From Panopea generosa (taxonomy: Eukaryota; Mollusca; Bivalvia; Adapedonta; Hiatellidae): a stretch of DNA of 64,000 bases. The notes under the pieces are model-generated. The model saw nothing but the letters and a program-made list of their open reading frames with translations. It had not been told where the DNA came from and made no database searches. Positions 15,909 through 63,590 of this stretch are shown in pieces; within the stretch, counting starts at the first letter, position 1, and every line of letters begins with the position of its first letter. The stretch spans positions 20,881,004-20,945,003 of the forward strand of contig CM055895.1 in NCBI GenBank assembly GCA_029582155.1, read 5' to 3'. The position numbers and the translations under genes were made by a program.

Positions 15909-16205
15909 GTTTTACTACCATGTTAAATTTTACTTTGGTTTTAATCCCTTTTGAAATTTTACTTCAGTTATACTCCCATGTGAAATTTTATTTCAGTCTT
16001 ACTCCCATACGAAAGTTTACTTTGGTATTACTTCCATGTGAAATTTGACTCAGTTTTACTCCCGTGTGAAATTTTACTTTGGTATTACTCCCATGTTAAA
16101 ATTTATTTCAGTTTTACTTCCATGTGAAATTTTACTTTGGTTTTACTCCCATGTGAAATTTTATTTTGGTTTTACCCCCATGTGAAATTTTACCTCAGTA
16201 TCAAT
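15909..16205. repeat. 29-bp minisatellite, right part
   Basis: Continuation of the array at 12,308-12,954 with the same ttttactcccatgtgaaa core. It resumes directly after the TTAA duplication. Confidence 0.9.
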
Positions 16206-16314: not shown

Positions 16315-16770
16315 GGGGAAAGTTTTAAGCCTGTGTGGTTCCGGCTAAGAATAGAATCACTGTCGATCTCTGCAGAGGAGTAGGAATCCTCCGAATGGGT
16401 GTCGTGTTCATTTTATCATTTTTTGTCATGTTCACTATTGTGGTTAAATTATCAACCCCTGTGTGGTTCCAGGGAGCCATGAGTGATGGCAAGAATAGGA
16501 TCACTGTGGCTTATGCATGCTGTAAGAAGCGACAATTTGAGTAATACAATAGAATTTGCTGAAACTCTGCAGTTCTGCAGGTATCAAGGTTCTAGGTTCA
16601 TTCTGCATATTCATTTGTTGATGTATTTTTTTTAATCTGTATGTTAATTTGTTGTTTTTGTACATGTAGAGTGAACCTCGAATCTTCCTTCCTGTTGGCG
16701 TTGAATAACCTATAATATGATGCTACGCGGTAAAACCCTATTCATTCATTCATTAAAAAGTTTTGTGCAC
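16315..16770 (+). mobile_element. Probable SINE-like dispersed repeat with ATTC tail
   Basis: Two copies of a gtgtggttcc...gaatag(a/g)atcactgt segment (about 16,330 and 16,460) are followed by a body that ends gcgttgaataacctataat, then gctacgcggtaaaaccctattc and (attc)n. The short-tandem tail is typical of bivalve SINEs. No clear tRNA head. Confidence 0.4.
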
Positions 16771-16779
16771 TTTAGCACA

Positions 16780-17088
16780 AGCTTTTTTCATTGGATCTCC
16801 ACCAAATTTATAAAATAGTTATATAACCATAATATTGCTGACAAATTTAAATAAGCCAAATGGGATTATTGTCAGAGTTGCCTTTGAAACATACAACATT
16901 GCACTTTCACACTACATTTTTTTTATTGAATCTTCACCAAACTTACACTAGTAAGTTATATAACCATAATATCTCGGACAAGTTTTTTAACCGCCTAAAT
17001 CGAACAATGGAACTATTTGACTTTGTGTGCAACATATCACCAGAAGGTTGTATTGGATCCTCGCCAAACTTACAGAGCATCAACGTTT
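16780..17088. repeat. Dispersed repeat with ~130-bp internal duplication
   Basis: The segment attggatctccaccaaatttat...ataaccataatat occurs two to three times in diverged form (about 16,793, 16,925 and 17,050). It is non-coding. Confidence 0.5.
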
Positions 17089-17089
17089 A

Positions 17090-18035
17090 GGTTACAGCTT
17101 GAGTATGCTTTACTGTAGCAATTGAAGCAGGCTATGGAACTACAATGTGAATAGACATTGCACCTGGGGTTTCTTGAAGCTGCACCTGGAGTTGGTATTG
17201 GAGCTGCACTTGGATTGTTTTTTTATTGGGTTTAATATCATTTTCAACACATTTCAGGTTATATATGGCACATCCAGTTTTATTAGTGGAGGAAGATCTC
17301 GGAATGAATCTGAGTAGAATCATCGTCCTTCTGCATGTAACTGGCAAACTTTCTCACAAAGTTTTGAAGCGAGAGGGACTTGAACGTACAACCTGGGCAA
17401 GTGAGAAGTAAGTGATTTTGAGACGGAGCCTTAGACCACTCGGCCACAGAGGATTCTGTTCAACAGGAGTTGGCATTGAAGGTGCAACTATAGTTGGCAT
17501 CAGTGCTAAAACTGGTGTAATTACTTGTGCTTCACCTGGAGTAGATCTTGCTGGATGAGGTATTGTTGCTACAACTACGGTTGACCTTGGTGCTTCACCT
17601 GGAGTGGCCAGTGTTGCTGCAACTGGAATAGGTCGTGGTATTGTTGCTGCAACTGGCGTAGGTCTTGGTGCTGCAGCTGTAGTAAATCTTGGTGCTGTAA
17701 CTGGAGAAGGTCTTGGTGCTGCAGCTGTAGTAAATCTTGGTGCTGCAACTGGAGTAGGTCTTGGTGCTGCAGCTGTAGTAAATCTTGGTGCTGCAACTGG
17801 AGTAGGTCTTGGTGCTGCAGCTGTAGTAAATCTTGGTGCTGCAACTGGAGAAGGTCTTGGTGCTGCAGCTGTAGTAAATCTTGGTGCTGTAACTGGAGTA
17901 GGTCTTGGTGCTGCAGCTGTAGTAAATCTTGGTGCTGCAACTGGAGTAGGTCTTGGTCTTGGTGATTGCAATTGGAGTAAATATTTGTACTGTTACTGGC
18001 GTGGGTTTTGGGGCTGTAACTGGAGTTCATGATCT
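17090..18035 (-). pseudogene. Inverted, broken partial copy of the giant repeat exon
   Basis: Read on the minus strand this is Ala/Pro/Thr-rich sequence of the same type as 54,580-55,060 and 56,740-56,850 of the giant exon. Shared marker stretches are ARSTPGEAQVITPVLA (in the large exon, PRSTPGEAYMITPVLA) and the nucleotide run cctgcttcaattgc followed by aagcatactcaagct. The core is a 48-bp tandem (16 residues, APRPTPVAAPRFTTAA), about seven copies. It is broken by a one-base shift near 17,962, by a SINE at 17,217-17,451 and by stops at the distal end. The 8-residue GAAPMPTP array, over 70 units in the giant exon, is here a single unit. Confidence 0.82.
17217..17451 (-). mobile_element. tRNA-headed SINE, minus strand, inserted in the exon copy
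   Basis: The minus strand reads gtggccgagtggtctaaggc (A box), then a B-box-like gttgtacgttcaagtccc, the central cagttacatgcagaaggacg, and a 3' end near gatattaaacccaataaa. The flanks acagaatcc and acaatcc may be a mutated target duplication. Confidence 0.8.
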
Positions 18036-26579: not shown

Positions 26580-29500
26580 GTACGTATATTTAATTAACCT
26601 CATGTAATTTAAAGGGAATATATCAGGATTTTTCAAAATGTTTAAATTGACTAAAACAATTATTTCCAATATAACATCCCTATATATACTACATGTAACT
26701 GATTCCACATTGGCAAAAGGATATCTATTTAAACATGCCAAAATATTATATTGAAAAGGGATTTCCTAACATGGGCTGCGCGCCTAGTTTAGACTAAAAT
26801 AGATTTCCATCTTAAAATTGCCACATAACTTGTGACGTATTAAATGAGTCACGCGATTACACTTTGATTTCAATATGATCTACAAGTGATACAATTCATT
26901 TCATCTTAGAAAGTGTCCGAATGACGATATAAAGGTAATGAAGTGCTGTCTATTTTTAGAATGGGGATTTCGTTTTAAGTTTTGCACTCCAATATAAATA
27001 TCGATTATGTCACATTTTGGTGAATTTGAAATACCAAACCATTTGGATTTTATTTATTAATGATAATGAGATGCTCAGTTATCTTTTTTTTAAATGATTC
27101 TATTTTTTTAGACATTTATAGCTTTTGTCCTGATATAATCTCTTTAATCCTTTACTTCATATAAACACCTTTGGACACCTCTAATAAAGACACCTTTGGA
27201 CACCTTATATAGAAGGCTATTGAATTATTGGGTGAATTATGTTTATACTAACTGACAGAGTGGAAAACAGTGCAGGAAGTGTTCAGATTGCGAGCAATCT
27301 GAACTCTTCCTGCACTGTTTTCAAAGGGCATCTGTGATTGGTGCGAGAAAATTATAGCTCATATTTTATTTTATCATTTCGACTGTATGACCAATAGAGT
27401 AATGTATATATACCTGAACATGATACAGAAAAAAAACTCAATGCAAATAAAAATTAAGAAAACAACGTACAGTAGAGATTTATATAAAAATAATAATAAA
27501 ATACAAATTTAATTAGAAAATTAAGAGGTGGTAGACACACATTTTGCAAGTTTATATTCAACAGATAGGTGCAGTTTTCTCTTGCTTAAAAGAAACGGTC
27601 ATCAGTTTAACCAGACTGTTACTAATACATTATATAACTGTGTTTGTGTTTTTTAATTTGGAAGGCGAATGTGGCGTCAGGCGACGAATGAAGCGACGTC
27701 TGGACGAGTTTGGCGAGATGATCTTGCTGAAAACTGACAAAAACCCGCTGGATTTTAACGGTTACGGTAACTGGTGTGGTTATGGCGGGAAAGGGGACAC
27801 AGTGGATGATATAGACGGGTAAGCTCGGTGTTTGGTCAAATGTTTCTCATTTTATTTTGACACATTTGCAATGGATGCCCTCCTACCAACCACTCAACTC
27901 TTGTGGTCATTTTCAACACACCAACTTCAATTAAAGGGAATTGATCTGGATTTTTCAAAAATTTCAAATTGGCTTAGACATTTTTGCCCAATAGATCATG
28001 CCTATATCAGAGACAAAGACGCATAATTATGTCTCTGCCTTTATATAATCATTAACCCCGCAATACCAAAAGGATGTCTATCAAAACATGCTAAAATAAC
28101 ATATTGAAAAGGGGTTTCCTAACTTGGGTTAGACTAAAATAGATTTCCCGCTTAAAATTGCAACATATTTTGTGACGTATTAAATGAGTCACGTGATTTC
28201 ATTTTGATTTCAAATTGATCCGTCATACAGTTGTAAGCGTTGTAAACAAATTGAATCATGTCGAACAGAATTTAAGTGCTGTCTATTTTTGGAATGGGAA
28301 TTTCATTTCAAGTTTACCACATCAATTGAAATATCGATTTTGTCACGTTTTGGTGGATTTGATTTCTAAACCATTCGGATTTTATTTATTAATGATAATG
28401 AGAGACTTTTATCTATTTTAAAAATAATTTTATTTTTTAAGACATTTATCGCGTTTTTTCCTGATATACTCCCTTTGAAGTTGTGCATGTGTCATTAATA
28501 CGCCTAGGACCCAAAATTCATTTAAAGATTTTGAGTACGTAATTAGTATCATATTCTAAATAATTTATATACTATGTATTGAAACATTTGAACGAGAAAA
28601 TAACTACATTTTATATAACACCATACAACTGTACATTAGCACATGTTCGAAAAATTATTCAGTTTTGACTGAAATCTTTGTAGTTTGATATTCGATTTTA
28701 CGATTTTCTTGACACTTCGAGCACACAAAAGTTTGAATTAGAGAGTAAATTTTAAATTAACTGAAGCAAACACAAATTCCTCTTTAAATATGCTATTTCG
28801 AGGAAAACCATTTGAAGTACCTTGTATTAAATGTTTCCCACACACCTGTAACATACAATGAGCAACAATAAATGAATACAGAAACAAACACATAAAAGAT
28901 AGTCAACTGAAATACTTTAAAATCCGATTATTTGAATCACCCTATCAGAAACATTATCAGAATCTTGTTACAAAGTTTTAAAGTTTTAAACAAGCGAATC
29001 ATAGATGCTCACTATAAGCATTACGTGCAGTATAACACGTACTATTGCAAACACTTTTTGACACCTGTGCTTAAGCAATACTGTAATCATTGGTCTGCAT
29101 CGCACGCCGTCTCGAATGCATTCCTGTATCACGCCTGAAAGGGTCGATTCCCAGGCACTGATTGCCCAGTCAGTGGAATATTTTATCACCGTTATGTTTC
29201 CACTGCACTACAGTCATGTGGTGAACGAGAAATTAGGTAGCAATTACAATGTCACACATTTATACCCCATCATATACATGTAGATAGAGAATGGTTCGCA
29301 ATCTTTTTTGTAGTTTAGTAAAACTTTTTACCTGGAATTTACGTTTTATTTGTATTTTGCAGGTGCTGCATGGTGCACGACAAATGCTACTCGCACGTGA
29401 ACAGAGACGAATGCCAAACTTGGCTGAAGTATAAAGTCTACACCACTGAATACAGATGGTCATTCCATAATGGCGTCATAACGTGCAGTAAGTCGATTGT

Positions 29501-44708: not shown

Positions 44709-44770
44709 ATTGGCGACGTTGACAAACATGTGACATACCAACGTCACGTGGGTGCTATACTATTACGTCA
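44709..44770 (+). promoter_or_regulatory. Candidate promoter: inverted CCAAT box, E-box and CRE-like sites
   Basis: ATTGG at 44709-44713, CACGTG at 44745-44750 overlapping ACGTCA at 44741-44746, and TTACGTCA at 44763-44770. All lie 115-180 bp before the ATG at 44,887, in a locally GC- and CpG-richer patch. No TATA box is placed convincingly. Motif evidence only. Confidence 0.4.
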
Positions 44771-44886
44771 TTAGTTACCACCTTGGTAACATATTAGGAC
44801 GTTGTCGATATTTTCCTCAGTTAAATTCTCTATTTGATAGAGAAAATGACGGAATATTTGTCTCCTATTCAACGTAAATATGGATA

Positions 44887-45076
44887 ATGGGTAACGTGTA
44901 TAGTCGCGGCACTAAGTCGCCGGAGAATGCGGCAGATTCTCCGAAAAAGAAGAAAAGCGCGGGGAATTGGTTCCGAAAGAAGATTCTGCATAAAAATTCT
45001 CCAAAAGTTGGCTCCGCCGTAATATTGTCAGGTGTCCCGAACCAGGGTACAGACACAATAGAAGAAATGGCAGAAG
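44887..45076 (+). CDS. First coding exon of the giant repeat gene
   Basis: 63 codons plus one base, donor GTACGT. Features are MGNVYS, ADSPKKKKSAGNWFRKKILH and an acidic end DTIEEMAE. The context before the ATG (gataATGG) is acceptable, and no earlier in-frame ATG extends the frame. Confidence 0.75.
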
Positions 45077-48000
45077 GTACGTTGTGCAATACTGGTTTTC
45101 ATGGCTTCTACTGTATGTGTGTCACTGTGTGTATCACTACTACAAGGCAACATTGGTGTTGGGGCGCTTCAATTATTGGGGGTAAACTAACTGTGTGCTC
45201 CTGTATAATACTGCTTTACAGAGATAATCTCATTGTGTGTGTTTTTTTATTAAACTGCTTTACAGAGATAATCTAACGGTGCGCCCAGCTTTACAGAGAT
45301 AATCTAACGGTGCGCCCATTTACTGCTTTACAGAGATAATCTAACGGTGCGCCCATTTATAATACTGCTTTACAGAGATAATCTCACTGTTTTTTTTTTA
45401 TTAAATTGCTTAACAAAGATAATCTTACTGTGTGCTACTTTGTAATACTGCTTTACAGAGATAATCTAACGGTGCGCCCATTTATAAAACTGCTTTACAG
45501 AGATAATATAACTGTCTGTTCCTTTATAATAATGCTTAACAGAGATAATCTAACTGTGTGTTTCTTTATTATACTGATTTACAAAGATAATGTTATGGTG
45601 AGTTCCTTAATAATACTGCTTTACAAAGATAATCTAACTGTGTGCTACTTTGTAATACTGCTTTACAGAGATAATCTAACGGTGCGCCCATTTATAAAAC
45701 TGCTTTACAGAGATAATCTAACTGTGTGTTCCTTTATGATACTGCTTTACAGAGATAATCTCACTGTGTGTGTTTTTTTTTAAACTGCTTTACAGAGATA
45801 ATCTAACTGTGTGTTACTTTGTAATACTGCTTTACAGAGATAATCTAACGGTATGCTTCTTTATAATCTGTGTGTTTCTTTATAATTCTGCTTTACAGAG
45901 ATACTCTAACTGTGTGTTCCTTTATAATACTGCTTTACAGAGATAATCTAACTGTGTGTTTCTTTATGATACTGCTTCACAGAGATAACCTCACTGTGTG
46001 TTTCTTTATGATACTGCTTCACAGAGATAATCTAACTGTGTGTTCCTTTATGATACTGCTTCACAGAGATAATAAAACTGTGTGTTCCTTTATAATTCTG
46101 CTTTACAGAGATAATCTAACTGTGTGTTCCTTCATAATACTGCTTTACAGAGATAATCTAACTGTGTGTTCCTTTATAGTACTGTTTTACAGAGATAATA
46201 TAACGGTGTGCTTCTTTATAATACTGCTTTACAGAGATATTCTAACAATGTTTTCCTTTCTGATACTGTTTTACAGAGATAATATAACGGTGTGCTCCTT
46301 TATAATACTGCTTTACAGAGATATATAACGATGTGCTCCTTTATGATACTGCTTTACAGAGATACTCAAACTGTGTGTTCCTTTATGATACTGCTTTACA
46401 GAGATAATATAACTGTGTGTTCTTTTATGATACTGCTTTACAGAGATAATATAACTGTGTGTTTTTTTATGATACTGCTTTACAGAGATAATATAACATT
46501 GTGTTCTTTTATGATACTGTTTTACAGAGATAATGTAACGGTGTGTTCTTTTATGATACTGCTTTACAGAGATTATATAACTGTGTGTTCTTTTATGATA
46601 CTGCTTTACAGAGATAATATAACTGTGTGTTCTTTTATCATACTGCTTTACAGAGATAATATAACTGTATGCTCCTTTATAATTCTGCTTTACAGAGATA
46701 ATCTAACTGTGTGCTTTGTTATAATATTGCTTTACAGAGATAATCTAACGGTGTGCTCCATTATAATACTGCTTTACAGAGATAATATAACTGTGTGGCC
46801 ATTTATAATCATGCTTTACAGAGATAATCTAACATTGTGCTCTTTTATAATACTACTTTACATTGAAATTATATAACAGTATGGTCCTTAGTAATTCTGC
46901 TTTACAGAGATAATAGAATGTTTTGTTCCTTTATGATACTGCTTTACAGAGATCATCTAACTGTGTGTTCCTTTATGATACTGCTTTACAGAGACAATCT
47001 AACTGTGTGTTCCTTTATGATACTGCTTTACAGAGACAATCTAACTGTGTGTTCCTTTATGATACTGCTTTACAGAGACAATCTAACTGTGTGTTCCTTT
47101 ATGATACTGCTTTACAGAGACAATCTAGCGGTGTGTTCCTTTATGATACTTCCTTTATGATACTGCTTTACAGATATAATCTAACTGTGTGTTCCTTTAT
47201 GATACTGCTTTACAGAGCTAATCTAACTGTGTGTTCCTTTATGATACTGCTTTACAGAGACAATCTAACTGTGTGTTCCTTTATGATACTGCTTTACAGA
47301 GATAATCTAACTGTGTGTTCCTTTATGATACTGCTTTACAGAGACAATCTAGCGGTGTGTTCCTTTATGATACTGCTTTACAGATATTATCTAACTGTGT
47401 GTTCCTTTATGATACTGCTTAACAGAGCTAATCTAATTGTGTATTCCTTTATGATACTGCTTTACAGAGACAATCTAACGGTGTGTTCCTTCATGATACT
47501 GCTTTACAGAGACAATCTAACTGTGTGTTCCTTTATGATACTGCTTTACAGAGATAATGTAACTGTGTGTTCCTTTATGATACTGCTTTACAGAAATAAT
47601 CTAACAGTGTGTTCCTTTATGATACTGCTTTACAGAGATAATGTAACTGTGTGTTCCTTTATGATACTGCTTTACAGAGATAATGTAACTGTGTGTTCCT
47701 TTATGATACTTCCTTTATGATACTGCTTTACAGATATAATGTTAATGTGTGTTCCTTTATAATACTACTTTACATAGATGATATAATACTGCGGTCCTTT
47801 ATGATACTGCTTCACAGAGATAATCTAACTGTGTGCTCCTTTATAATACTGCTTTACAGAGATTATCTAACTGAGCACTGTTTTGCAAAGGTAATTTAAC
47901 TGTGTCCTTGTGCTCACGTTTGTTATTCTTTTAATGTAAAAAAATATTGAAATATCCTTGAGGTCTTCATTGAAATCCTGTATGAAAATATACTTTATCT

Positions 48001-51000
48001 TGTGTCCTTGTGAATCTCTTTGTACTTTTGCTAAACTAAGACAATTTAGCTGTGTCCTTTTGCGTTCCTTTTATTGTTCCCCTTCATAGTCATATTTTAC
48101 AAAGAATATTAAACTGTGTCCAGATATAAGTTGGCTGTGTCCGTGTGCGCCACTTTGTTAAACTGGATTACAAAGATTACTATTAGCTATGGTTATCTGC
48201 GTACATTAATCACAGTTTATATTTCATTTTATATCCTGTATTACGAAGATAATTTAGCTGTGTCTAAATGCGTTCTAACAATCTCATAATATTGTAAGCA
48301 TTGTAAGTTTCTTTACAAATATAATTAAGTCGTGTCCTTGTTCCACCCTATACAAAGATAATTTGTTTGTGTCGTTGTGCGCTGCCTTACAATGATACTT
48401 TATTTGTGTTCTTGTGCGCCCCCTTACAAAGATAATTTATTTGTGTCTTTGTGTCTCCCTTTACAAAGATAGTTTGTTTATGTCCTTGTGTGTCCCTTTA
48501 TAAAGATAATATAGATTTGTCCTTGCTCGCCCCCTTACAAAGATAATTATTTTTTTGTCGTTGTGCACCCCTTTAGAATGATAATCTGATTTTGCCCTTG
48601 TCACACCTTACAAAGGTAATTTATTTGTGTCCTTGTGAGCCCTATTACAAAGATAATTCATGTGTTTCCTTGTGCGACCCTTACGAAGATAATTTATTTG
48701 TGTCCTTGTGCGCCCATTTACAAAGATAATTAGTTTTTGACGTTGTGCGCCACTTTACAAAGATTTACAAAGATAATTAATTCGTGTGCTTGTGAGCCAT
48801 TTGACGAAAATAATTTATTTATGTTGTGCGCTCCTTTAAAAAGAAAATTCATTTGTGTTGTAGTGCGCCCCTTTACAAAGATAATTTATTTGTGTACTTG
48901 TGAGCCAGAAGACGAAGATAATTTATTGATGTTGTGCGCTCCTTTAAAAAGAAAATTCATTTGTGTTGTTGTGCGCCCCTTTACAAAGATAATTTATTTG
49001 TGAACTTGTGAGCCATAAGACGAAGATTATTTATTTATGTTGTGCGCTCCTTTAAAAAGAAAATTAATTTGTGTTGTTGTGCGCCCCTTTACAAAGATAA
49101 TTTATTTGTGTACTTGTGAGCCATTTGACGAAAATAATTTATTGATGTGCGCTCCTTTAAAAAGAAAATTCATTTGTGTTGAAGTGCGCCCCTTTACAAA
49201 GATAATTTATTTGTGTACTTGTGAGCCATAAGACGAAGATAATTTATTTATGTTGTGCGCTCCTTTAAAAAGAAAATTCATTTGTGTTGAAGTGCGCCCC
49301 TTTACAAAGATAATTTATTTGTGTACTTGTGAGCCATTTGACGAAAATAATTTATTGATGTTGTGCGCTCCTTTAAAAAGAAAATTAATTTGTGTTGTTG
49401 TGCGCCCTATTACAAAGATAATTTATTTGTGTACTTGTGAGCCATAAGACGAAGATTATTTATTGATGTTGTGTGCTCCTTTAAAAAGAAAATTCATTTG
49501 TGTTGTTGTGCGCCCCTTTACAAAGATAATTTATTTGTGTACTTGTGAGCCATTTGACGAAAATAATTTATTGATGTTGTGCGCTCCTTTAAAAAGAAAA
49601 TTCATTTGTGTTGTGCACCCCTTTGCAAAGATAATTTATTTGTGTACTTGTGAGCCATAAGACGAAGATAATTTATTGATGTTGTGCGCTCCTTTAAAAA
49701 GAAAATACATTTGTGTTGTGCGCCCCTTTACAAAGAAAATTCATTTGTGTCCTTGTGAGCCACTTTACGAAAATGAATTATTGGTGTCCTTCCCTTTACA
49801 ATGATATTTATTTGTGTCCTTGTGCGCTCCTTAACAAAGGTAATTTATTAGTGTCCTTGTGCGCCCCTTAACAATGATAATTTATTTGTGTCCTTGTGCG
49901 CCCCCTTACAAAGATAATTTATTTTTGTCTTTGTGTCTCCCTTTACAAAGATAATTTGTTTATATCCTTGTGTGTCCCTTTATAAAGATAATATAGGTGT
50001 GTCCTTGTTCGCCCCCTTACAAAGATAATTTAGTTGTGTCGTTTAGCGACACTTTACAAAGATAATTTATTTGTGTTGTTGTGGGCCCCTTAACAAAGAT
50101 AAGTTGTTTGTGTCATTGTGCACCCCTTTACAAAGATAATTTGTTTGTGTTGTTGTGAGCCACTTTACAGAGATATTTTGTTTGTGTCCTTGTGCGCCTC
50201 TATACAAAGATAATTTGTTTGTGTTCTTGTGCGCCCCTTTACAAAGATAATTTGTTTGTGTCCTTCTGTGCACCTTTACAAAAATAATTTAGTTGTGTCG
50301 TTTAGCGACACTTTACAAAGATATTTAGTTGTGTTGTTGTGCGCCCCTTTACAAACATGTTTTATTTGTGTCAATGACCGCCCCTTTACCAAGATAATTT
50401 ATTTTTGTATTTTTGAGTCCCTTTACAAAGACAATTTGTTTGTGTCCTTGGGTGTCCCTTTATAAAGATAATATAGATGTGTCCTTGTGCGCCCCTTACA
50501 AAGATTTTTTTTTTGTCGTTCTGCACCCCTTTGCAAAGATAATTTGTTTGTGTCCAAGTGCGCCACCTTACAAAAATAATTCATTTGTGTGCTTGTGTGC
50601 CCCTTTACAAAGTTAATATAGTTGTGTCCTTATGCGCTCCTTTAAAAAATAATTTGTTTGTGTCCTTGTGCGCCCCTTTACACAGATAATTTATTTGTGT
50701 CCTTGTGTGCCCCTTTACAACGATAATTAATTTGTGTCCTTGTGCACCCCTTTACACAGATACTATAGTTGTGTCTATATGTGCCCCTTTACAGTGACAA
50801 TTTCTTTGTGTTTTTGTTCGCTCCATTACAAAGATAATTTATTTGTTTTGTTGTGTGCCCTTTTACAAAGATAATTTAGTTGTGTCTTTGTGCTCCCTTT
50901 TATAAAGAGAATCTGTTTGTGTTCTTGTGCGCCCCCTTACAAAGATAATTTATTTGTGTCATTGTGTGACCATTTACAAAATGAAATTATTTGTGTCCAT

Positions 51001-54000
51001 GTGCGCCACATTACAAAGATAATTTAGTTTTGTCCTTGTTCGTCCCTCTATAAAAATAATTTAGTTGTATCCTAGTGCGCCACTTTACATATAAATTATT
51101 TGTGTCCTTGTTCACCGATTTACATAGATAATTTAATTGTGTTTTTGTGAGACACTTTACAAGATAAATGATTTGTGTCCTTGTGTGCCTCTTTACAAAG
51201 ATGATTTATTTGTGTCCTTGTGCTCACCTTTACAAAAATAGTTTGGTTGTGTCCTAGTGCATTCCCTTTAGAAATATAATCTGTTTGTATCATTGTGCGC
51301 CCCCTTACAAAGATAATTTATTTTAATTTAGTTAATTTTTGTCGTTGTCCTTCCCTTTACAAAAATAATTTATTTGTGTCCTTGTGCATCCCTTTACAAA
51401 GATTATGTATTTGTGTCCTTGTGTGTCCCTTTCCAAAAAAAATTTATTTGTGTCTTTGGTCGCCCGTTTACAAAGACAATTTTTTTTGTCCTTGTGTGCC
51501 CCTTTAGAAAGAAAATTTATTAGTGTCCTTGTGCGAACTTTTGCAAAGATAATTTATTTGTGTTGTGTGTGTCCCTTTACAAAGATAATTAATTTGAGTC
51601 CTTTTGCGCCCATTTACAAAGATAATTTATGTGTTTCCTTGTGTGCCCCATTTACAAAAATAATTAAGTCGTGTTGTTATATACCCCTTCCACTTTTACT
51701 TTACAGAGCAATAATTAAGCTGTGTTATTGCATGCCCTTTTTATACTACTCCTGCTTTAAAAAACATAATTTAGAAATGTCCATGTGCCTTGTTTTTATT
51801 AAATTCCTTTGAAATCCTTTGTTACAGAGATAATTTAGCTGTGTTCTTGCGCGCCTCATTGTAATCCTGCATAGAGACTATGTAATGGTGGCCATGTGTG
51901 TCCTTTTGTAATTCTGCTTTACAATAATAATTACTCTGTGTCCTTGTGCACCTATTGTAATCCAGCTATACAGATGGACTGTGTAATGGTGGCCATGTGT
52001 GTCCTTTATAGTACTGCTTTAAAATAATCATTACTCTGTGTCCTTGTGCACCTTTTGTAATCCTGCTATACAGAGAGACTGTGTAATGGTGGCCATGTGT
52101 GTCCTTTATAGTAATGCTTTACAATGATAATTACTCTGTGTCCTTGTGCACCTTTTGTAATCCAGCTGTACAGAGAGACTGTGTAATGGTGGCCATGCTT
52201 GTCCTTTATAGTACTGCTTTACAATAATAATTACTCTGTGTCCTTGTGCATCTTTTGTAATCCTGCTGTACAGAGAGACTATGTAATGGTGGCCATGTGT
52301 GTAATGGCGGCCATGTGTGTCCGTTATAGTATTGCTTTACAATAATCCTGCTTCACATTGACAGTAAGGCCGTGTCATTGTGGGCCCTTTGTAATCCTTC
52401 TTAAGAGTGATGATTAGGTCATGTCCTTGTGAGCCCGTTTGCAATCCTGCTTTTCATTGATAATTAGGCCGTGTTCTTGTGCGCCCCCTTTGAATCCTAC
52501 TTTACAATGATAATTAGCCAGTGTTCTTGTGCGCCCGTTTGTAATCCTGCTTTTCAATGATCATAGGCCGTGTCCTTCTGCGCCCCTTTGTAATCCTGCT
52601 TTACAATGATAATTTGGCCGTGCCTTTGTGCGCCCGTTTGTAATCCTGCTTTACAATGACAGTAAGGTCGTGTCCTTTGTGCCCCTTTGTAACCCTGCTT
52701 TACAAGACAGTTAGGCCGTGTTCTTGTGCTTTCTTTTGTAATCCTGCTTCACATTGACAGTTAGGCCGTGTCCTTGAGCGCCCATTTGTAATCCTGCTTT
52801 ACAAAGAAAATTAGGCCGCGCCCTTTGTAATCATTCTTGACAAAGACAATGATGCTGCGTCATTGTACGCCTCTTTGTAATCCTGCTTTACAAAGACAAG
52901 GATGCTGTGTCATTGTACGCCTCTTTGTAATCCTGCTTTACAAAGATAATTAGGCCGTGTCAGTGTGCACCCCTTTGCAAAACTGCTTTACAACGATAAT
53001 TATGCCGTGTCCTTGTGCGCCCTTTACAATCCTGATTTACAATGATAATTAGGCCTTGTCCTTGTGCGCCCGTTTGTTATCCTGCTTTAGAGTAATAATT
53101 AGGCCGTGTCCTTGTGCTCCCATCTTTAATCTTGCTTTACAAAGATGATTAGGCTTTGTCCTTGTGCGCTTCTTTGTAATCCTGCTTTACAATGATAATT
53201 AGGCCGTGTCCTTGTGTGTCCCTTTGTAATCCTGCCTTACAATGATAATTAGGCCGTGTCATTATGCTCGCATTTGTTATCCTGCTTTAGAGTAATACTT
53301 AGGCCGTGTCCTTGTGCTCCTATTTTTAATCCTGCTTAACAAAGATAATTAGGCCGTGTCCTTGTTCGCCTCTTTGTAATACTGCTTTACAATGATAATT
53401 AGGCCGTGTCCTAGTGCTCCCATTTGTAAACCTGCTTATCAAAGATAATTAGTTCTTGTCATTGTGTGCCCCATTGTAGTCCTGCTTTACAAAGATAATA
53501 AGACTGTATCCTTGTGCGCATTTATAATAAAAATTATAATCATGGTTTATTATGATAATCAGGCAGTATCTTTGTGTGCCCTTTTGTAATCCTGCTTTAC
53601 AAAGATAATTAAGGCTGTGTCATTGTGCGCCCCTTCGTAATTCTGCTTTAAAGAGAGATAATTTAATTGTCCTTTAGTGTCATTCTTAATCCGGCTTTAC
53701 ACAGAATCTTATACTGTGTCCCTATGTGATCATTTTATTGCACCGTTTTGTAGTATTTCTTTACAAATACAATATTGCTGTTTCCATGTGTGCCCGTTTG
53801 CAGCGTAGTTTATTGACCAAAAATTGAGATAAGTGTTGTGAGCCCTTTGATTTCCAGTTTACAAAGATATTTTACCTATGCATTTGTGTGCCCCTTAGCA
53901 TCCCTGCTTTACAGAGACTATTTGGATGTGTCAGTGTTCACCCCTTTGCAAATTTATTCCTAATACATAATTTTGGTTTGTCTTTGTGTGTCCTTTGCAT

Positions 54001-57000
54001 TAATTTTCTTCTTTATGAAAACAAATCTGGTTGCAAACATGCACAATAAATACCATGTAGCTATATCCGTATGTGCAAACGTTGTTATCCTGCTTTACAA
54101 AGATATTTGAGATTGTCTGTGTGCGCTCCTTTGTAATCCTGTTTTAAAGATAATAAATCTGTGCCATTAACCCCCTTGCAATTCTGCTTTACAAAGATAT
54201 TTTACTTATACGCTTTGTGCAAATATAATTCATATTTGTTCATGTTTGTAATTTTATCGCAGCCCTTTGTAATCATACTTTACAAAGATAATTTAGCTTG
54301 CATATGTACATTCTTTTATCACATCTTTTTACATCATGTTTATATATTGTAAAAGTGATATGACTACAGCAAAAAAGGATCCATACGATTTACTGATATA
54401 GAGGATTTGTTTTCTTTGAATTTAACTTTCAACTCGTTAATATATCATAGTATTTGCCGTTATTTTAATGTGAGAGTACACTTTTTTTCTCTCCTAGAAA
54501 TTGCACCAACTTTGGAACAGGCTGCTGAGAAGACACCAGATCCTGTTGAAACCATGATGTCATCTCTAGTCGTAGCAACAAGGTCATCTCTAGTCACAGC
54601 TCCAATGCCTACCCCAACTGCACCACCAAGGTCTAATCCAGTTGCAGCACCAAGGTTTACCCTAATTGTAGCCTCACTATCGACTCCAATTGCAGTCCAA
54701 ATACCTACTCCAATCGCAGCTGAAAGATCTATCCTAGTTGCAGCAATAATATCTACTCCAGCTGCAGCCCCAACACCTAGGCCAATTGCAGCAGTCAGAC
54801 CCACTCCAATTGCAGCTCCAAGACATATGCCAATTGCAGCACCAAGATTTACTCCAGTTGCAGTCCAAAGATATAAGCCAACAGCGGCACCAAGACCAAG
54901 CCCTACTCAAGCTGTAGCAACAATGGCCTCTCCAGGTGAAGCATCATGGCCAACCACAATAACAAGACCAACTTCAGTTGCAGCAGTTTCAGTACCAAGG
55001 TCTACTCCAGGTGAAGCATACATGATAACACCAGTTTTAGCACAGAGGCCAAAAATGGTTGCAGCTCCAAGGCCAACTACAGGTGCAGATCCAATGCATA
55101 CACTAGGTGCAGCTCCAATGCCAACTCCGTGTGCAGCTCCAAGGCCAACTACAGGTGCAGCTCCAATGCCGACTCCAGGTGCAGTTCCAATGCCAACTCC
55201 AGGTGCAGCTCCAAGGCCAACTACAGGTGCAGTTCCAAGGCCAACTATAGGTGCAGCTCCAATGTTAACTCTAGGTGCAGCTCCAATGCCAACTCCAGGT
55301 ATAGCTCCAATGCTAACTCCAGGTGCAGCTCCAAGGCCAAATATAGGTGAAGCTCCAATGCCAACTCCAGGTGCAGCTCCAATGCCAACTCCAGGTGAAG
55401 CTCCAAGGCTAACTACAGGTTCAGCTCCAATGCCATCTACAGGTGCAGCTCCAGTGCCAACTCCAGGTGAAACGCCAATGTCCACTTCAGGTGCAGCTCC
55501 AATCCCAACTTCAGGAGCAGCTCCAAGGCCAACTACAGGTGCAGCTCCAATGCCAACTCCGGGTGCAGCTCCAAGGCCAACTACAGGTGCAGCTCCAATG
55601 CCGACTCCAGGTGCAGTTCCAATGCCAACTCCAGGTGCAGCTCCAAGGCCAACTACAGGTGTAGTTCCAAGGCCAACTATAGGTGCAGCTCCAATGTTAA
55701 CTCTAGGTGCAGCTCCAATGCCAACTCCAGGTATAGCTCCAATGCTAACTCCAGGTGCAGCTCCAAGGCCAAATATAGGTGAAGCTCCAATGCCAACTCC
55801 AGGTGCAGCTCCAATGCCAACTCCAGGTGAAGCTCCAAGGCTAACTACAGGTGCAGCTCCAATGCCATCTACAGGTGCAGCTCCCGTGCCAACTCCAGGT
55901 GAAACGCCAATGTCCACTTCAGGTGCAGCTCCAATCCCAACTTCAGGAGCAGCTCCAAGGCCAACTCCCGGTGCAGCTCTAAGGCCAACTACAGGTGCAG
56001 CTCCAATGCCGACTCCAGGTGCAGTTCCAATGCCAACTCCAGGTGCATCTCCAAGGCCAACTACAGGTGTAGTTCCAAGGCCAACTATAGGTGCAGCTCC
56101 AATGTTAACTCTAGGTGCAGCTCCAATGCCAAATATAGGTGAAGCTCCAATGCCAACTCCAGGTGCAGCTCCAATGCCAACTCCAGGTGAAGCTCCAAGG
56201 CTAACTACAGGTGCAGCTCCAATGCCATCTACAGGTGCAGCTCCAGTGCCAACTCCAGGTGAAACGCCAATGTCCACTTCAGGTGCAGCTCCAATCCCAA
56301 CTTCAGGAGCAGCTCCAAGGCCAACTACAGGTGCAGCTCCAATGCCAACTCCCGGTGCAGCTCCAAGGCCAACTACAGGTGCATCTCCAATGCCAACTCG
56401 AGGTGCAGCTCCAATGCCAACTACAGGTGCAGCTCCAATGCCAACTCCAGGTCCAGTACATAGACCAACTACAGGTGTAACTGCAATGCCAACACCAGGT
56501 GAAGCTCCAATGTCAACTCCAGGTGCAGCTACAAGGCCAACTACAGGTGCAGCTCCAATGCTATCTACAGGTGCAGCTCCAAGACCAACTCTAGGTGCAG
56601 CTCCTATGCCAACTCCAGTAGTGGCTCCTAGGCAAACTCCAGGTGCAGCTCCAATGCCAACTCCAGGTGCAGCTCCAATGCCAATTACAGGTGCAGCTCC
56701 AATGCCAACTCAATGTGCAGCTCTAAGCCTAATTTCAGGTGCAGCTCCAATGCCAACACCAGGTGCAGCTTCATTGTATATTCAGATCGAAGCACCAGAG
56801 TCTGCTTCAATTGCAACAGAAAAGCTTGCTCAAGCTATTACACAAACGGCAATGACAACCGTATCCGTGAATTCAACTGCAGTACCCTCTCCAGACGCAG
56901 TATCAACTTCTACTCCAGTTTTAACAACACTACTTGCCTCAAGTGTAGCATCAAGCTCTGCTCCAGTGCCTCCTTTAGCTGTTACACCAAGGTCCCTCGC

Positions 57001-60000
57001 AGTTGCAGCATCAATGCATACCTCAGTAACTGTTGTATCACCAAAGTCTACTCAATATCCAGTTGCAATACACTTGCCTACTACAGTTGCAACTCAATTG
57101 TCTGCCTCATATAGAGCACCAGGAATAAAGACTGAATCTGGTAGAGCATCTGATGTTAAGGCTAGATATGACGGAGCATCAGATGTAAAGGCCAGATGTG
57201 AGAAATCACCAGATGTACAGGGTGGATCTGATAGAGCACCAGATATAAAGGTTGAATGTGATAGAATACAAGATGTTAAGGCTGAATCTGATAGAGCACC
57301 AGATGTAAAGGCTGAATCTGATAGCGCACCAGATGTCAAGGCTGGATCTGACAGGGCACTGGATATCAACGCTGGATCTGATAGAGCACCAGATGTAAAG
57401 GTTGAATCTGATAGAGCACCAGAAGTAAAGGCTGGATATGAAGAGGCATCAGATGTAAAGACTGGATCTGAAAGGGCACCTGATGTAAAGGCTGGATCTT
57501 ATGGAGTACCAGATGTAAAGGCTGGATCTGATAGGACACCTGATGTAAAGGCTGGATCTGATGGAGTACCAGATGTAAAGGCTGGTTCTGATAGAGCACC
57601 TGATGTAAAGGCTGGATTTGATGTAGCATGTGATGTAAAGGCTGGATCTGATGGAGCACCAGATGTAAAGGTTGGATGTGATATAGCGCCAGATGTTAAG
57701 GCTGAAACTAATAGAGCACCAAATGTTGAGGCCGGATCTTACAGGGCACCTGATGTTAACACTGGATCTGATAGAGCACCAGATGTTAAGACTGGATCTG
57801 ATAGAGCACCCGATGTTAAGGCTGAATCTGATAGAACACCAGGAATAAAGGCTGGATATGAAGGAGCATCAGATGTAAAAGCTGGATTTGATAGGGCACC
57901 TGATGTAAAGGCTAGATCTGATGGAGTACAAGATGTTAAGGCTGAATCTGATAGAACACCTGATGTAAAGGCTGGATCTGATGGAGCACCTGATGTAAAA
58001 TCTGGATCTGATGGAGCACCTGATGTAAAGACTGGATCTGATAGAGCACCAGATGTTAAGACTGAATCTGATAGAGCACCTGGTGAACAGGCTGGATCTG
58101 ATAGAGCAACTTATCCTAAGGCTGTATCTAATAGAGCACCAGATGTAAAAGTTGAATCTGATAGAGCACCTGATTTAAAGGCTGGATCTGACAGGGCACC
58201 TGATGTGAAGGCTGGATCTGATAGAGCACCATGTGTTAAGGCTAGATCTGATAGAACACCAACTGTTAACGCTGAATCTGATAGAGCTCCAGGAGTAAAG
58301 GCTGGATATGAAAGAGCACCAGATGTAAATACTGGATCTGATGGAGCACCAGATGTAAAGGCTGGATCTGATAGAGCACCTGATGTAAACGATGGATCTA
58401 ATGGAGCATCTGATGTAAAAGCTGGATCTGATGGAGCACCAGATGTAAATGCTGAATCTGATAGAACACCTGATGTAAAGGCTGGATATGATGGAGCACC
58501 TGATGTAAAGTCTGGATCTGATGGAGCACCAGATGTAAAGGCTGGATCTGATAGATCACCAGATGTTAAGGCTGAATCTGATAGAGCACCAGATGTAAAG
58601 GCTGAATCTGATAGAGCACCACATGTAAAGGCTGGATCTGACAGGGCACCTGGTGTTAATGCTGGATCTGATCAAGCACCAGATGTTAAGGATGAATCTG
58701 ATAAAGCACCAGATGTAAAGGCTGGATCTGACACGACTCCTGATATAAAAGCTGGATTCGATAGAGCACCTTCTGTAAAGGCTGGATCTGATAGAGTAAC
58801 AGATGTTAAGGCTGAATCTGATTGTGCACCAGTAGACACGACTGGATATGAAGGAGCACCAGATGTAAATGCTAGATCTGATGGAGTACCAGATAAAAAT
58901 GCTGAATCGGATAGAGCACCAGTTATTAAGTCTGAATCTGATAGAGCACCTGATGAACAGGCTGGATCTGATAGAGCAACTTATCCTAAGGCTGTATCTA
59001 ATAGAGCACCAGATGTAAAGGTTGAATCTGATAGAGCACCAGATGTAAAGGCAGGATCTAATGGAGCACCAGATGTAAAGGCTGGATCTGATAGAGCACC
59101 TGATGTAAACGATGGATCTGATAGAGCACCTGATGTAAACGATGGATCTGATGGAGCACCTGATGTAAACGATGGATCTGATGGAGCACCTGATGTAAAG
59201 GCTGGATCTGATGGAGCACCACATGTAAAGACTGGATCTGATAGAGCACCTAATTCTAAGGCTGTATCGAGTAAAGTACCAGATGATAAGACTGAATCTG
59301 ATAGAGCACCAGATGTAAAGGCTGGATCTGACAGGGCACCTGATGTTAATGCTGGAACTGTTAAAGCACCAGATGTTAAGGATGAATCTGAAATAGTACA
59401 AAATGAAAAGGCTGGATCTGACAGGGCTCCTGATGTTAAGGCTGGATCCGATAGAACATCTGATGTAATGGCAGGATCTGATAGAGCACCAGATGTTAAG
59501 GCTGAATCTGATAGAGCACCAGGAGTAACGACTGGATCTGATGGAGCACCAAATATAAAGGCTGGATCTGATGGAACACCTGATGAAAACGCTGGATCTG
59601 ATATAGTACCCTATGTAAAGGCTGGATCTGATAGGGCACCTCATGTAAAGGCTGGATCTGATGGAGCATTAGATATAAAGGCTGGATCTAATGAAGTGCC
59701 TGATGTAAAGGCTGGATCTGATGGAGCACCAGATGTAAACGCTGGATCTGATAGAGCACCCTATGTAAAGACTCGATCTGAGGGAGCATCAGATGTAAAG
59801 GCTGGATCTGATGGAGCACCTAATGTAAAGGTTGGATCTCATGGAGCACCTGGTGTGAAGGCTGGATCTGATGGAGCATCAGATGTAAAGGCTCGATCTA
59901 ATGGAGCACCAGATGTAAAGACTGGATCTCATAGAGCACCTTATGTAAAGGCTGGATTTGATAGAGCACCTGATGTAAAGGCTGAGTCCGATGGAGCACC

Positions 60001-63000
60001 AGATGTACAGGCTGGATCTGATAAAACACCTGATGTTAAGGCTGGATCTAATAGAGCACAAGATGATAAGGCTGAATCTGATAGAACACCAGGAGTAAAG
60101 GCTGGATATGAAGGAGCACCAGATGTAAAGGCTGGATATGAAGGAGCAGCAGATGTAAAGACTGGATATGTTAAGGTACCTGATGAACATGCTTGCTCTG
60201 ATAGTGCACCTGATGTTAAGGTTGGATCTGATAGAGCACCAATTGTTAATGCTGGATCTGATAGAGCATTTGATGTAAAGACTGGATCTAAAACAAGAGT
60301 ATCCAGTGATCAAGCTAACTCTGATAGAGCACATGTTGTTAAGGCTGGATCTAAAAGAAGAACACCCAGTGCTAAGGCTGACTCTAATAGAGCACCTGAT
60401 GTTATGGCTGGATCTAAAAGAATAGCACCCAGTGCTTCGGCTGACTCCGATAGAGCACTTGATGTTACGGCTGCATATACAAGAGCACCCAGTGCTAAGG
60501 CTGTCTCTGATAGAGCACCTGATGATAAGGCTGGAACTACAAGAGCACCCAGTTCTAAAGCTGTCTCTGATAGAGCACCTAATGATAAGGCTGGAACTAC
60601 AAGAGCACCCAGTTCTAATGCTGTCTCTGATAGAGCACCTGATGTTAAGGCTGGATCTAAAAGAAAAGCACCCAGTGCTTGGGCTGACTCTGATAGAGCA
60701 CTTGATGTTACGGCTGCATATACAAGAGCACCCAGTGCTAAGGCTGTCTCTGATAGAGCACCTAATGTTAAGGCTGGATCTAAAAGAAGAACAACCAGTG
60801 CTAAGGCTGACTCTAAAAGAACACATGATGTTATGGCTGGATCTAAAAGAAGAACACCCAGTACTAAGGCTGGCTATGATAAAACACCTGATGTTAATGC
60901 TGGATCTAAAAGGAGAGCACCCAGTGCTAGGGCTGACTCTGAAAGAGCACTTGATGGTAAGGCTGCATCTACAAGAGTAACCAGTGCTAAGGCTGTCTCT
61001 GATAGATCAATTGATGTTAAGGCTGGATCCAAAAGAAAAGCACCCAGTGCTAAGGCTGACTCTGATAGAGCATTTGATGTTAAGGCTGGATCTAAAAGAA
61101 GAGCACCCAGTGCTAACGCTGGCTCTGAAAGAGAGCCTTATGTCAAGGCTGGATCTAAAAGAAGAGCACCCAGTGCTAAGGCTGACTCTGATAGAACACT
61201 TAATGTTATGGCTGGATCTAAAAGAAGAGCTACCAGTGCTAAGGCTGACTCTGATAGAGCACTTGATGTTAAGGCTGGATATAAAAGAAGAGCACTCAGT
61301 CTTAAGGCTGACTCTGATAGAGCACTTGATGTTAAGGCTGGATCTAAAAGAAGAGCACCCAGTGTTAAGGCTGACTCTGATAGAGCACTTGATGTTAAGG
61401 TTGGATATAAAAGAAGAGCACTCAGTGTTAAGGCTGACTCTGATAGAGCACTTGATGTTACGGCTGGATCTAAAAGAAAAGCACCCAGAGCTGAGGCTGA
61501 TTCTGATAGAGCACTTGATGTTAAGGCTGGATCTAAAAGAAAAGCACCTGATGCTAAGGCTGACTCTGATAGAGCACTTGATGTTATGGATAGATCTAAA
61601 AGAAGAGCACTCAGTGCTAAGGCTGACTCTGATAGAACACTTGATGTTAAGGCTGGATCTAAAAGAAGAGCACCCAGTGCTAATGCTGACTCTAATAGAG
61701 CACTTGGTGTTATGGCGGCATCTACAATAGCACCCAGTGCTAAGGTTGGCTCTGATAGAGCACCTGATGTTAAGGCTGGATCCAAAAGAAAAGCACCCAG
61801 TGCTAAGGCTGACTCTGATAGAGCACTTGGTGTTACGGCTGGATCTAAAAGAGGAGCATTCAGTGATAAGGTTGACTATGATAGAGCACTTAATGTTAAG
61901 GCTGGATCTGAAAGAAGAGCACCCAGTGCTAAGGCTGACTCTGATAGAGCACTTGATGTTAAATCTGGATCTACAAGTGCACCCAGTGCTAAGGGTGATT
62001 CAGATAGAGCACCATATGTTAAGTCAAGATCTAAAAATAGAGCACCCAGTGCTAAGGCTGACCCTGATAAAGCACTTGATGTTAAGGCTGGATGTAAAAG
62101 AAGAACACCCAGTTCTAAGGCTGACTCTGATAGAGCACCTGATATTAAGGCTGGATCTAAAAGAAGAGCATCCAGTGCTAAGGCTAGCTCTGATAGAGCA
62201 CCTGATGTTAAGGCTGGATCTAAAAGAAGAGCACCCAGTGCTAAGGCTGACTCTGATATAGCACTTGATTTAAATGTTGGATGTAAAAGAAGAACACCCA
62301 GTTCTAAGGCTGACTCTGATAGAGCACTTGATGTTAAGGCTGGATCTACAAGAGCACCCAGTGCTAAGGCTGACTCTGATAGAGCACCTGATATTAAGGC
62401 TGGATCTACAAGAAGAGCACCCAGTGCTAAGGCTGACTCTGATATAGCACTTGATTTAAATGTTGGATCTAAAAGAAGAGCACCCAGTGCTAAGGCTGAC
62501 TATAATAGAGCACTTGATGTTAAGGCTGCATCTACAAGAGCACCCAATGCTAAGGCTGGCTCTAACAGAGCACCTGATGTTAAGGCTGGATCCAAAAGAA
62601 GAACACCTAGTGCTAACGCTGACTCTGATAGAGCACTTGATGTTAAGACTGGATCTACAAAAGCACCCAGCGCTAAGGCTAGCTCTGATAGAGCACCTGA
62701 TGTTAAAGCTGGATCCAAAAGAAGAGAACCCAGTGCTAAGGATGACTCTGATAGAGCACTTGATGTTAAAGCTGGATCTAAAAGAAAAGCACCCAGTGCT
62801 AAGGCTGGCTCTGATAGAGCACTTGATGTTAAGACTGGATCTACAAGAGCACCCAGTACTAAGGCTGGCTCTGACAGATCACCTAATGTTAAGGCTGGAT
62901 CTAAAAGAAGAGCACCTAGTGCTAAGGCTGACCCTGATAGAGCACTTGATGTAAAGGCTGGATGTGATAGAGCACCCGATGTACAGACTGACTCTAAAAG

Positions 63001-63527
63001 AACACCCGATGTAAAGAAAGCTACATTACCAGACAATTTGAAATTAGATGACCAAAAACCTCGACCACGGAGTTCAAAAACAAAACCTGAACGACGACGA
63101 CCACCAAAAATGCAACAAAAAGTAACAGGACCATCTTCAGAACGTTTAAGGGATGGTGCATCAACAGAATCATCAATGTTGGGTGGTTTACAAAAGTTAG
63201 ACAATGTAATACCAAATGGTAATGTTGATACATCTGTGTCACAAACACAGTCAACTACTGACAAAATTCAACTGAAACCGGCAGTGTCAACACCAATATT
63301 TTCATCGTTTGACAAAAAGGCAGATTCCATTGATTTAAAAGAGTCTGGAAAATCTGTTATTTCACTGGTAAAAAAGGTAAGCGATTTCCGGATTCCAAAA
63401 CGAGCCAAAAATCCACCTCAGAAACCACTCTCCCTGAAGATACCACGGCCTCACATGTATGCTATTCCTGCTCTTGCTAAGGACGACGCTGAAAGACGTA
63501 TTTCATGGACACAAGTAAAAGGAAAGG
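44887..63527 (+). CDS. Giant repeat protein, putatively N-myristoylated, disordered (3' end outside window)
   Basis: I do not recognise this protein. Two exons are modelled, 44887-45076 and 54498-63527; both junctions are phase 1, so G + AA restores a Glu codon and the frame runs open for about 3,073 codons to the donor at 63,528. The N-terminus MGNVYSRG fits the N-myristoylation pattern (Gly2, Ser6). It is followed by KKKK and FRKK patches, which suggests membrane tethering. The rest is low complexity: degenerate Pro/Ala/Thr octads, GAAPMPTP octads, a 10-residue GSDRAPDVKA repeat, and a 21-residue basic compound repeat. A non-repetitive basic, Pro-rich region then follows (PRPRSSKTKPERRRPPK; ISLVKKVSDFRIPKRAK). 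There is no signal peptide, transmembrane segment or catalytic motif. A structural or scaffold role is a guess. Extra exons inside the 9.4-kb intron cannot be excluded. Confidence 0.68.
45195..47900 (+). repeat. 42-bp array with 3' splice-site-like units, ~64 copies
   Basis: The unit reads ctaactgtgtgttccttta then tgatactgctttacag and agataat. Each unit has a branch-point-like ctaac, a T-rich tract and a tttacag end about 31 bases later. 42 is a multiple of 3, so translated frames show LTVCSFMILLYRDN repeats in segments at 45,406-47,899, broken by frame changes. The frames are best explained as by-products. Confidence 0.9.
47900..48340. repeat. Transition zone between the 42-bp and 36-bp arrays
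   Basis: Degenerate units with a tttacaaagat core and gtgtccttgtg segments; period irregular. Confidence 0.6.
48340..51665. repeat. ~36-bp array, ~90 copies, with 213-bp higher-order repeat
   Basis: The unit is close to ttgtgtccttgtgcgcccc followed by tttacaaagataattta. In 48,737-49,700 a composite containing gctcctttaaaaagaaaatt and gagccatttgacgaaaat recurs. Matching points at 49,037, 49,250 and 49,463 give exact 213-bp spacing (six units). Confidence 0.9.
51840..53700. repeat. ~50-bp array and ~100-bp composite repeat
   Basis: At 51,880-52,330 about five ~100-bp units contain gtgtaatggtggccatgtgt. From 52,330 the unit is 50 bp: tcctgctttacaatgataat then taggccgtgtccttgtgcgc and cccctttgtaa. 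The core is the same as in the 42- and 36-bp arrays. Degenerate copies continue to about 54,300. Confidence 0.88.
54498..63527 (+). CDS. 9,030-bp symmetric (1-1) exon encoding ~3,010 repetitive residues
   Basis: Acceptor ctctcctag/AA, donor GG/GTAAGTG. The exon length is a multiple of three with phase 1 at both ends, so skipping it would keep frame. No stop occurs in over 9 kb despite many substitutions between repeat units. Order: short unique lead (APTLEQAAEKTPDPVETM), degenerate octads (about 54,580-55,060), GAAPMPTP octads (55,065-56,775), Ser/Thr/Val-rich spacer (56,776-57,115), 30-bp repeats (57,116-60,285), 63-bp repeats (60,286-62,960), unique basic tail (62,990-63,527). Confidence 0.85.
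55065..56775 (+). repeat. 24-bp coding repeat (GAAPMPTP), ~71 copies, with 17/18-unit higher-order repeats
   Basis: The unit ggtgcagctccaatgccaac plus tcca encodes eight residues; variants are PRPTT, PMSTS and PMLTL. The variant gactccaggtgcagttccaa recurs about 432 bp and then 408 bp apart (near 55,157, 55,589 and 55,997), i.e. three tandem blocks of 18 or 17 units. Confidence 0.93.
57116..60285 (+). repeat. 30-bp coding repeat (GSDRAPDVKA), ~105 copies
   Basis: Ten residues per unit with balanced charge (D, R, D, K); E replaces the first Gly in many units, giving local net negative charge. Common variants are GAPDV, RTPDV, GYEGAS and VNDGS. Confidence 0.95.
60286..62960 (+). repeat. 63-bp coding compound repeat, ~43 copies, basic
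   Basis: Each unit joins an 11-residue GSKRRAPSAKA part and a 10-residue DSDRALDVKA part. The second part is clearly the 10-residue repeat of the preceding block. A 60-bp form with STRAPSAKA also occurs. Net charge is about +3 per unit. Confidence 0.95.
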
Positions 63528-63590
63528 GTAAGTGAACAAATTTATGTGTTCTACACATACCATAAGTTCAAACTTAAATATTAAGCAGGC

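Follow-up and report, generated by a model that had tools for sequence, protein, structure and literature searches.

A five-copy gene family in Panopea generosa predicted to encode giant, lipid-anchored repeat proteins

A 64,000-nucleotide stretch of the Panopea generosa genome (C2:20881004-20945003 of the 1.474-Gb, 39-contig genome; hereafter the window) contains most of a gene in which a small first exon is joined to an exon of 9,030 bp dominated by two tandem repeat arrays. By searching the genome with its parts, we found this gene to be one of five copies, in which splice signals and start are conserved and the big exon is open in four. We consider it about an even chance that this is a real four-exon gene encoding a lipid-anchored, membrane-tethered disordered spacer or scaffold of about 2,600-3,170 residues. 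The exon structure and its conservation are read directly from the five copies, and from them we infer that the gene would be transcribed and that its product would carry a lipid anchor on one side of a membrane, a disordered chain and a site for a partner.

If expressed, these genes would constitute a hitherto unrecognised family whose very large proteins are predicted to be disordered and lipid-anchored. They would also provide five natural variants, far apart in repeat composition and much closer in length, and would open the idea of a length-set disordered spacer to testing within one genome.

Gene structure and its five copies

An earlier sequence-only reading had linked the MGNVYSRG start and basic patches of exon 1 to the 9,030-bp exon by a phase-matched splice, and had described the frame as uninterrupted. 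The ATG and the end of exon 1 proved exact to the base, and the donor, the acceptor and phase 1 at both ends of exon 2 were confirmed (Table 1). The frame of exon 2 runs without a stop from 54359 up to a stop at 63535. That exon 1 and the large exon belong to one gene, as the same reading proposed, is made probable by splice sites kept in all five copies. Its feature, 44887..63527, stands in its coordinates and falls short in its extent: 63527 is a splice donor, and the end of the gene lies beyond. The five-gene family, two further exons and a conserved promoter block had been overlooked.

Since a donor lies at 63528, we sought further exons past exon 2. Comparing the downstream DNA of the five copies revealed a phase-matched exon 3 of 171 bp (C2:20946028-20946198), downstream of the window, and a phase-matched exon 4 beginning at C2:20948206, likewise outside it. 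Both probably belong to the same gene, and an extra exon beyond exon 4 may exist. An alternative in which exon 3 is terminal (stop after LGLL) was set aside in favour of exon 4, because the donor GTGAGT, a phase-matched acceptor and, directly after the stop that ends exon 4, AATAAA are found in all five copies. The four-exon model of the window copy comprises 3,166 residues.

Table 1. Features of the window, in positions of the 64,000-nucleotide stretch. Inner boundaries of exon 2 (head, array A, link, array B, tail) are approximate.
Feature	Position	Strand	Description
Promoter block	44754..44816	+	all 63 columns identical across the five copies; contains ATTACGTCAT and an inverted repeat, GTTACCA-CCT-TGGTAAC
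Invariant run	44837..44947	+	111 columns: 50 bases of 5' leader and the first 61 coding bases
Upstream open reading frame	44880..44894	+	four codons, ATGGATAATGGGTAA; stop overlaps the main ATG (ATGGGTAA)
Exon 1	44887..45076	+	ATG at 44887; MGNVYSRG...; 63 codons plus one base; basic patches; donor GTACGT at 45077
Intron 1	45077..54497	+	acceptor TCTCCTAG ends at 54497 (CTCCTAG directly before exon 2)
Intron 1 minisatellite arrays	about 45288-47873, 48311-51677, 51873-53663	+	
Exon 2	54498..63527	+	9,030 bp, multiple of 3, phase 1-1; donor GTAAGT after 63527
Head	54500..55039	+	first 180 residues (cut chosen by the analyst); A/P/T/S-rich; degenerate repeats
Array A	55040..56803	+	about 588 residues; unit GAAPMPTP / GAAPRPTT
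Link	56804..57112	+	non-repeat; about 103 residues
Array B	57113..63013	+	about 1,967 residues; unit SDRAPDVKAG, later alternating with SKRRAPSAKAD
Tail	63014..63526	+	basic, non-repeat; about 171 residues
Degraded sixth copy	about 16323..18026	-	matches head/array A (head-like repeats, PRFTTAAAPRPTPVAA), the link, and the far copy's intron 3 and 3' flank

Exon 1 matches at five genomic places on one contig: four in tandem on the same strand (20.93, 20.96, 21.00 and 21.05 Mb; copies 1-4) and one inverted at 18.66 Mb, 2.3 Mb off (the far copy). The tail and exon 3 each matched at those same five genes and nowhere else in the genome, six first-look candidates being scored in each search. The big exon measures 9,030, 7,722, 7,410, 6,990 and 8,145 bp in the five copies, and both exon 2 and exon 3 are multiples of 3 in every one. 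Besides the window copy, the predicted proteins have 2,730, 2,626 and 2,871 residues, with copy 4 stopping at 2,287; 52 tail codons kept by copy 1 and the far copy are missing from copies 2-4. The start MGNVYSRG is identical in all five. Across the four-exon model, all 30 splice dinucleotides examined are GT or AG; exons 3 and 4 were located by patterns that include their AG or GT, so that what is established for these sites is the presence of the pattern in every copy. At the degraded sixth copy of the window, no match to exon 1, the tail, exon 3 or exon 4 was found.

The open frame of exon 2 is in itself weak evidence, because the array units are multiples of 3. Long open frames also exist in other frames of the exon 2 stretch and of copy 4, and an antisense open reading frame of 600 residues, together with other long antisense frames, was rejected as a by-product of such repeats. 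The evidential weight therefore comes from the paralogues, and comparing them is a way to distinguish a gene made up mostly of one repeat-rich exon from an open frame that arose by chance. In this comparison, open reading frames were listed if they lay outside the arrays and had matches in at least two other copies.

Conservation upstream and along the gene

Conservation is pronounced around the start of the gene. Of the 100 columns closest to the ATG on its upstream side, 95 are invariant, as are 46 of the 50 beyond these and 71 of the 112 farther out. The intron 2 reference has 1,013 invariant columns out of 1,480, with gap columns counted as varying, and its longest invariant run spans 55 columns. 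A 39-bp promoter core matched only at these five genes (up to 3 mismatches). We take the site ATTACGTCAT to be bZIP-like; most of it lies in the core, with the full site reaching just upstream. For the inverted repeat, an RFX X-box was considered and rejected: the consensus at ciliary target genes, as given in PMC5752003, is GTNRCC(0-3N)RGYAAC, and the repeat reads by eye as GTTACC-5N-GGTAAC, with a spacer of 5 that falls outside 0-3. The upstream open reading frame is identical in all five copies, and a role in translation control is possible.

The observed/expected ratio of CpG stands at 1.18 in the 1,000 bp upstream and 1.26 for exon 1, drops to 0.54 across intron 1 and 0.76 in the tail, and is lowest, at 0.10-0.14, in the head and arrays. 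Such a pattern would be expected if the promoter were unmethylated and the gene body methylated, and the codon make-up of the repeats could be an alternative source of it.

Substitutions were scored against a neutral yardstick of 3,888 columns, with 701 changes, drawn from intron 2 and the DNA following exon 3; the latter contains exon 4 (about 110 of the 3,888 columns), and neutral blocks with fewer than four copies were dropped. Exon 3 was counted as 71 codons in these tests, of which the final model keeps 57, and the far copy's head was cut to 492 bases here and in the gap test. Exon 1 carries 13 changes (4 silent, 9 amino-acid), compared with about 40 predicted by the introns. The tail has 17 silent and 26 amino-acid changes plus one stop (ratio 0.53; p 0.053), and exon 3 has 9 and 10 (ratio 0.48; p 0.13). 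Pooling exon 1, tail and exon 3 gives 30 silent and 45 amino-acid changes (ratio 0.58; p 0.028). Gaps in the non-repeat coding parts are multiples of 3 in four of four cases (four events only), versus 26 of 77 in introns (p 0.016); the far copy was left out of the link, a short piece of intron 1 used three of the five copies, and the intron set includes the stretch after exon 3, which holds exon 4. Set against the pairwise ratios of exon 2 (see below), the per-region and pooled ratios thus make the ends of the gene look constrained and the repeats not.

Within the repeats, codon positions vary unevenly. Between copies, the head has 41 variable second codon positions, versus 28 and 14 at the other two, third positions varying least. 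Among array A units, compared within each of the five copies, third positions are also the least variable. The units were chosen by regular expression, which biases their counts, entropies and codon-position pattern.

Predicted anchor, chain length and resemblance to known proteins

Pfam returned no families for exon 2, for the tail with exons 3-4, or for exons 3-4. For exon 1 with the start of the head, CheB_methylest (E 0.11; 12.6 bits vs a cut-off of 24) was dismissed as chance. PDB sequences gave no match for the C-terminus (E up to 1) or exon 1 (E up to 5). The absence of a recognised family, noted in the sequence-only reading, was thereby borne out. With the tail as query, GTDB genome contigs yielded 63 pattern stretches and no relative. 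A Myticin family search came back empty, as it did for its 14 control genomes. Five repeat and start peptides were not found in open-licence full-text papers, a search that does not cover print elsewhere; among the papers listed for mussels or molluscs, disorder, repeats and myristoylation, titles and abstract openings revealed none that could be recognised as dealing with this protein.

The N-myristoylation pattern is G-{EDRKHPFYW}-x-x-[STAGCN]-{P} after Met. The MG start with S6 fits this pattern and is unchanged in all five copies, which agrees with the lipid-anchor layout proposed earlier (a G-x-x-x-S start with downstream Lys/Arg) as far as a pattern can indicate. Read from the sequence, the N-terminus is polar and basic, with no hydrophobic signal-peptide-like stretch. 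MGNVYSRG is followed in exon 1 by KKKK and RKK patches, and together they predict N-myristoylation and attachment to the cytoplasmic face of a membrane. From this anchor the two repeat arrays would extend as a long flexible chain whose job may depend on length more than on exact sequence, and the tail together with exons 3 and 4, which form a basic, conserved C-terminal end, could hold or contact a partner.

A crude charge-hydropathy test places exon 1, array B and the tail on the disordered side of its line, but does so neither for the head, array A and the link nor for exon 2 in its entirety. The very long disordered chain suggested earlier finds partial support, for array B, tail and exon 1, in charge-hydropathy and composition. 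Array A is 26% proline with hardly any aromatic residues, and across the 3,009 residues of exon 2 there are 12 Cys and 1.5% aromatics. An AlphaFold single-sequence model of the 170-residue tail has a mean predicted local distance difference test (pLDDT) score of 58 and one short helix at 111-122; with that mean score, it was set aside as a query for fold searches. By a hand estimate, a chain of about 3,000 residues would be some 1.1 micrometres in contour length and would span roughly 60 nm as a coil.

In copies 1-4 and the far copy, array A has 588, 1024, 990, 839 and 124 residues and array B 1967, 1151, 1087, 1088 and 2164. Their sums range from 1927 to 2555, with a coefficient of variation of 0.11 versus 0.52 for A and 0.35 for B, and 5 of the 120 pairings of array lengths (permutations) were as tight in sum. 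This is a hint that chain length matters more than composition, and not proof of it, because copies 2-4 are close relatives. Tentatively, and with more doubt than belief, we hypothesise that the paralogues swap a neutral Pro/Ala array for a charged one while the two arrays together stay at about 1,900-2,600 residues, selection acting on how far a lipid-tethered disordered spacer can reach and not on what its sequence is.

The overall design is reminiscent of AKAP12, MARCKS and Bassoon. Because no family match was found, the resemblance would be one of design only, with no relationship demonstrated. In AKAP12 (gravin, SSeCKS), a small first exon that differs between isoforms is joined to a single very large coding exon, and a huge coding exon with a small first exon is what the present gene shares with it. 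AKAP12 is not known to have comparable tandem arrays, and no AKAP family appears among the Pfam hits of this protein. A single match to an RII-binding pattern is shared by every copy, STPVLTTLLASS/STSVLTTLLASS within the low-complexity link; two more overlapping matches fall in the far copy's head and none in exons 3-4, all counted without a chance rate. MARCKS is far shorter than this protein and is likewise absent, as a family, from its Pfam hits. PMC7752083 describes AKAPs as disordered scaffolds that bind membranes through three polybasic regions and often carry an N-myristoyl group, and MARCKS as membrane-associated through a myristoyl group and a polybasic stretch. PMC3071728 covers AKAP12 promoters and isoforms, and the word 'myristoyl' is absent from its text. 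Bassoon, according to PMC8632625, is a presynaptic scaffold of very large size (its constructs are numbered up to residue 3,938) that has two zinc fingers, three predicted coiled coils and a functional N-myristoylation consensus site. That site is reported to be dispensable for orientation at the Golgi (PMC8632625); therefore the myristoylation site here need not be the main anchor. Unlike in Bassoon, no zinc-finger Pfam hit was obtained in exon 1 with the head start or in exon 2. The titin PEVK region and neurofilament side arms are likewise long, of low complexity, and work through their length and charge, not through a fold. Neither is known to carry a membrane anchor, and no Pfam or PDB sequence match connects this protein with them.

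Competing readings and other features of the window

Several results weigh against a tethered disordered chain. Both gene and protein are predictions from sequence, and the predicted myristoylation derives from a short pattern. Much of exon 2 lies off the disordered side of the charge-hydropathy plot, as described above, and the kinship of copies 2-4 leaves about three independent points for the length result. Copy 4 carries one in-frame TGA in the exon 2 tail. Exon 1 alone gives p 1, silent changes being as rare as amino-acid changes and both about one third of neutral, and the regional tests for exon 1, tail and exon 3 are weak when taken singly. The silent/replacement tests cover exon 1, tail, exon 3 and head. 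The head departs in the opposite direction, at a ratio of 2.3 (p 0.0075; 11 silent changes, 68 amino-acid changes). Pairwise dN/dS (the ratio of non-synonymous to synonymous rates) taken across all of exon 2 is 0.99-1.38, which shows no constraint on its sequence. Gene conversion among the copies could also inflate conservation.

A serious rival, though an unlikely one, is that the main product is a 156-residue protein made from exons 1, 3 and 4, with exon 2 skipped or tissue-limited and the repeats largely passengers. The phase of exon 2 (1-1) and its length in multiples of 3 would permit such skipping in all five copies, the 1-3-4 join reads through in each of them, including copy 4 with its stop in exon 2, and the repeat arrays are without amino-acid constraint. 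However, the ratio of the exon 2 tail (0.53, p 0.053) argues against this, as do the splice sites of that exon, kept in five of five copies, and its frame, open in four of five over 7.4-9.0 kb.

Quite unlikely, in our estimate, is a decaying lineage-specific cluster with expanded repeats, one premature stop, one relic and no present function. The in-frame TGA of copy 4, the inverted relic at about 16323-18026 and the near-neutral evolution of exon 2 as a whole are in accordance with decay, whereas the conserved promoter, leader and exon 1 and the pooled test speak against it.

We place very little weight on a repeat protein with a secreted or structural role, akin to those of shell, byssus or silk, and with no lipid anchor. 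Such proteins in general terms share Ala/Pro/Gly low-complexity repeats with this one, but the conserved polar and basic N-terminus, with no signal-peptide-like stretch, the fit of the MG start and S6 to the myristoylation pattern, and the scarcity of Cys and aromatic residues in exon 2 all argue against it. Equally improbable is diversification of head and array A under positive selection, as in conflict or recognition proteins: the excess of amino-acid changes in the head and its variable second codon positions would suit this, but the excess stems from few silent changes (0.40 of neutral) at an amino-acid rate of 0.92 of neutral, the head was chosen after the fact among four regions, and its units are a repeat, among which exchange moves existing variants, breaks the test and can mimic such an excess, so that the result is not firm.

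Elsewhere in the window, exons at 6854-8712 (+) resemble the C-terminus of the helicase DDX46/PRP5; of the three open reading frames scanned there, the last alone gave weak, sub-cut-off Pfam KH hits. At 27535-27819 (+) lies a phospholipase A2-like exon (Pfam E 4.7e-7; 30.7 bits, just below the 32.1-bit cut-off). A 72-bp tandem array of about 14 copies occupies 11134-12121 (+), with a 239-codon open frame at 11435-12154. Separate arrays at 12315-12956 and 15909-16199 are built from nearly the same 29-bp unit, GTTTTACTCCCATGTGAAATTTTACTT plus two bases.

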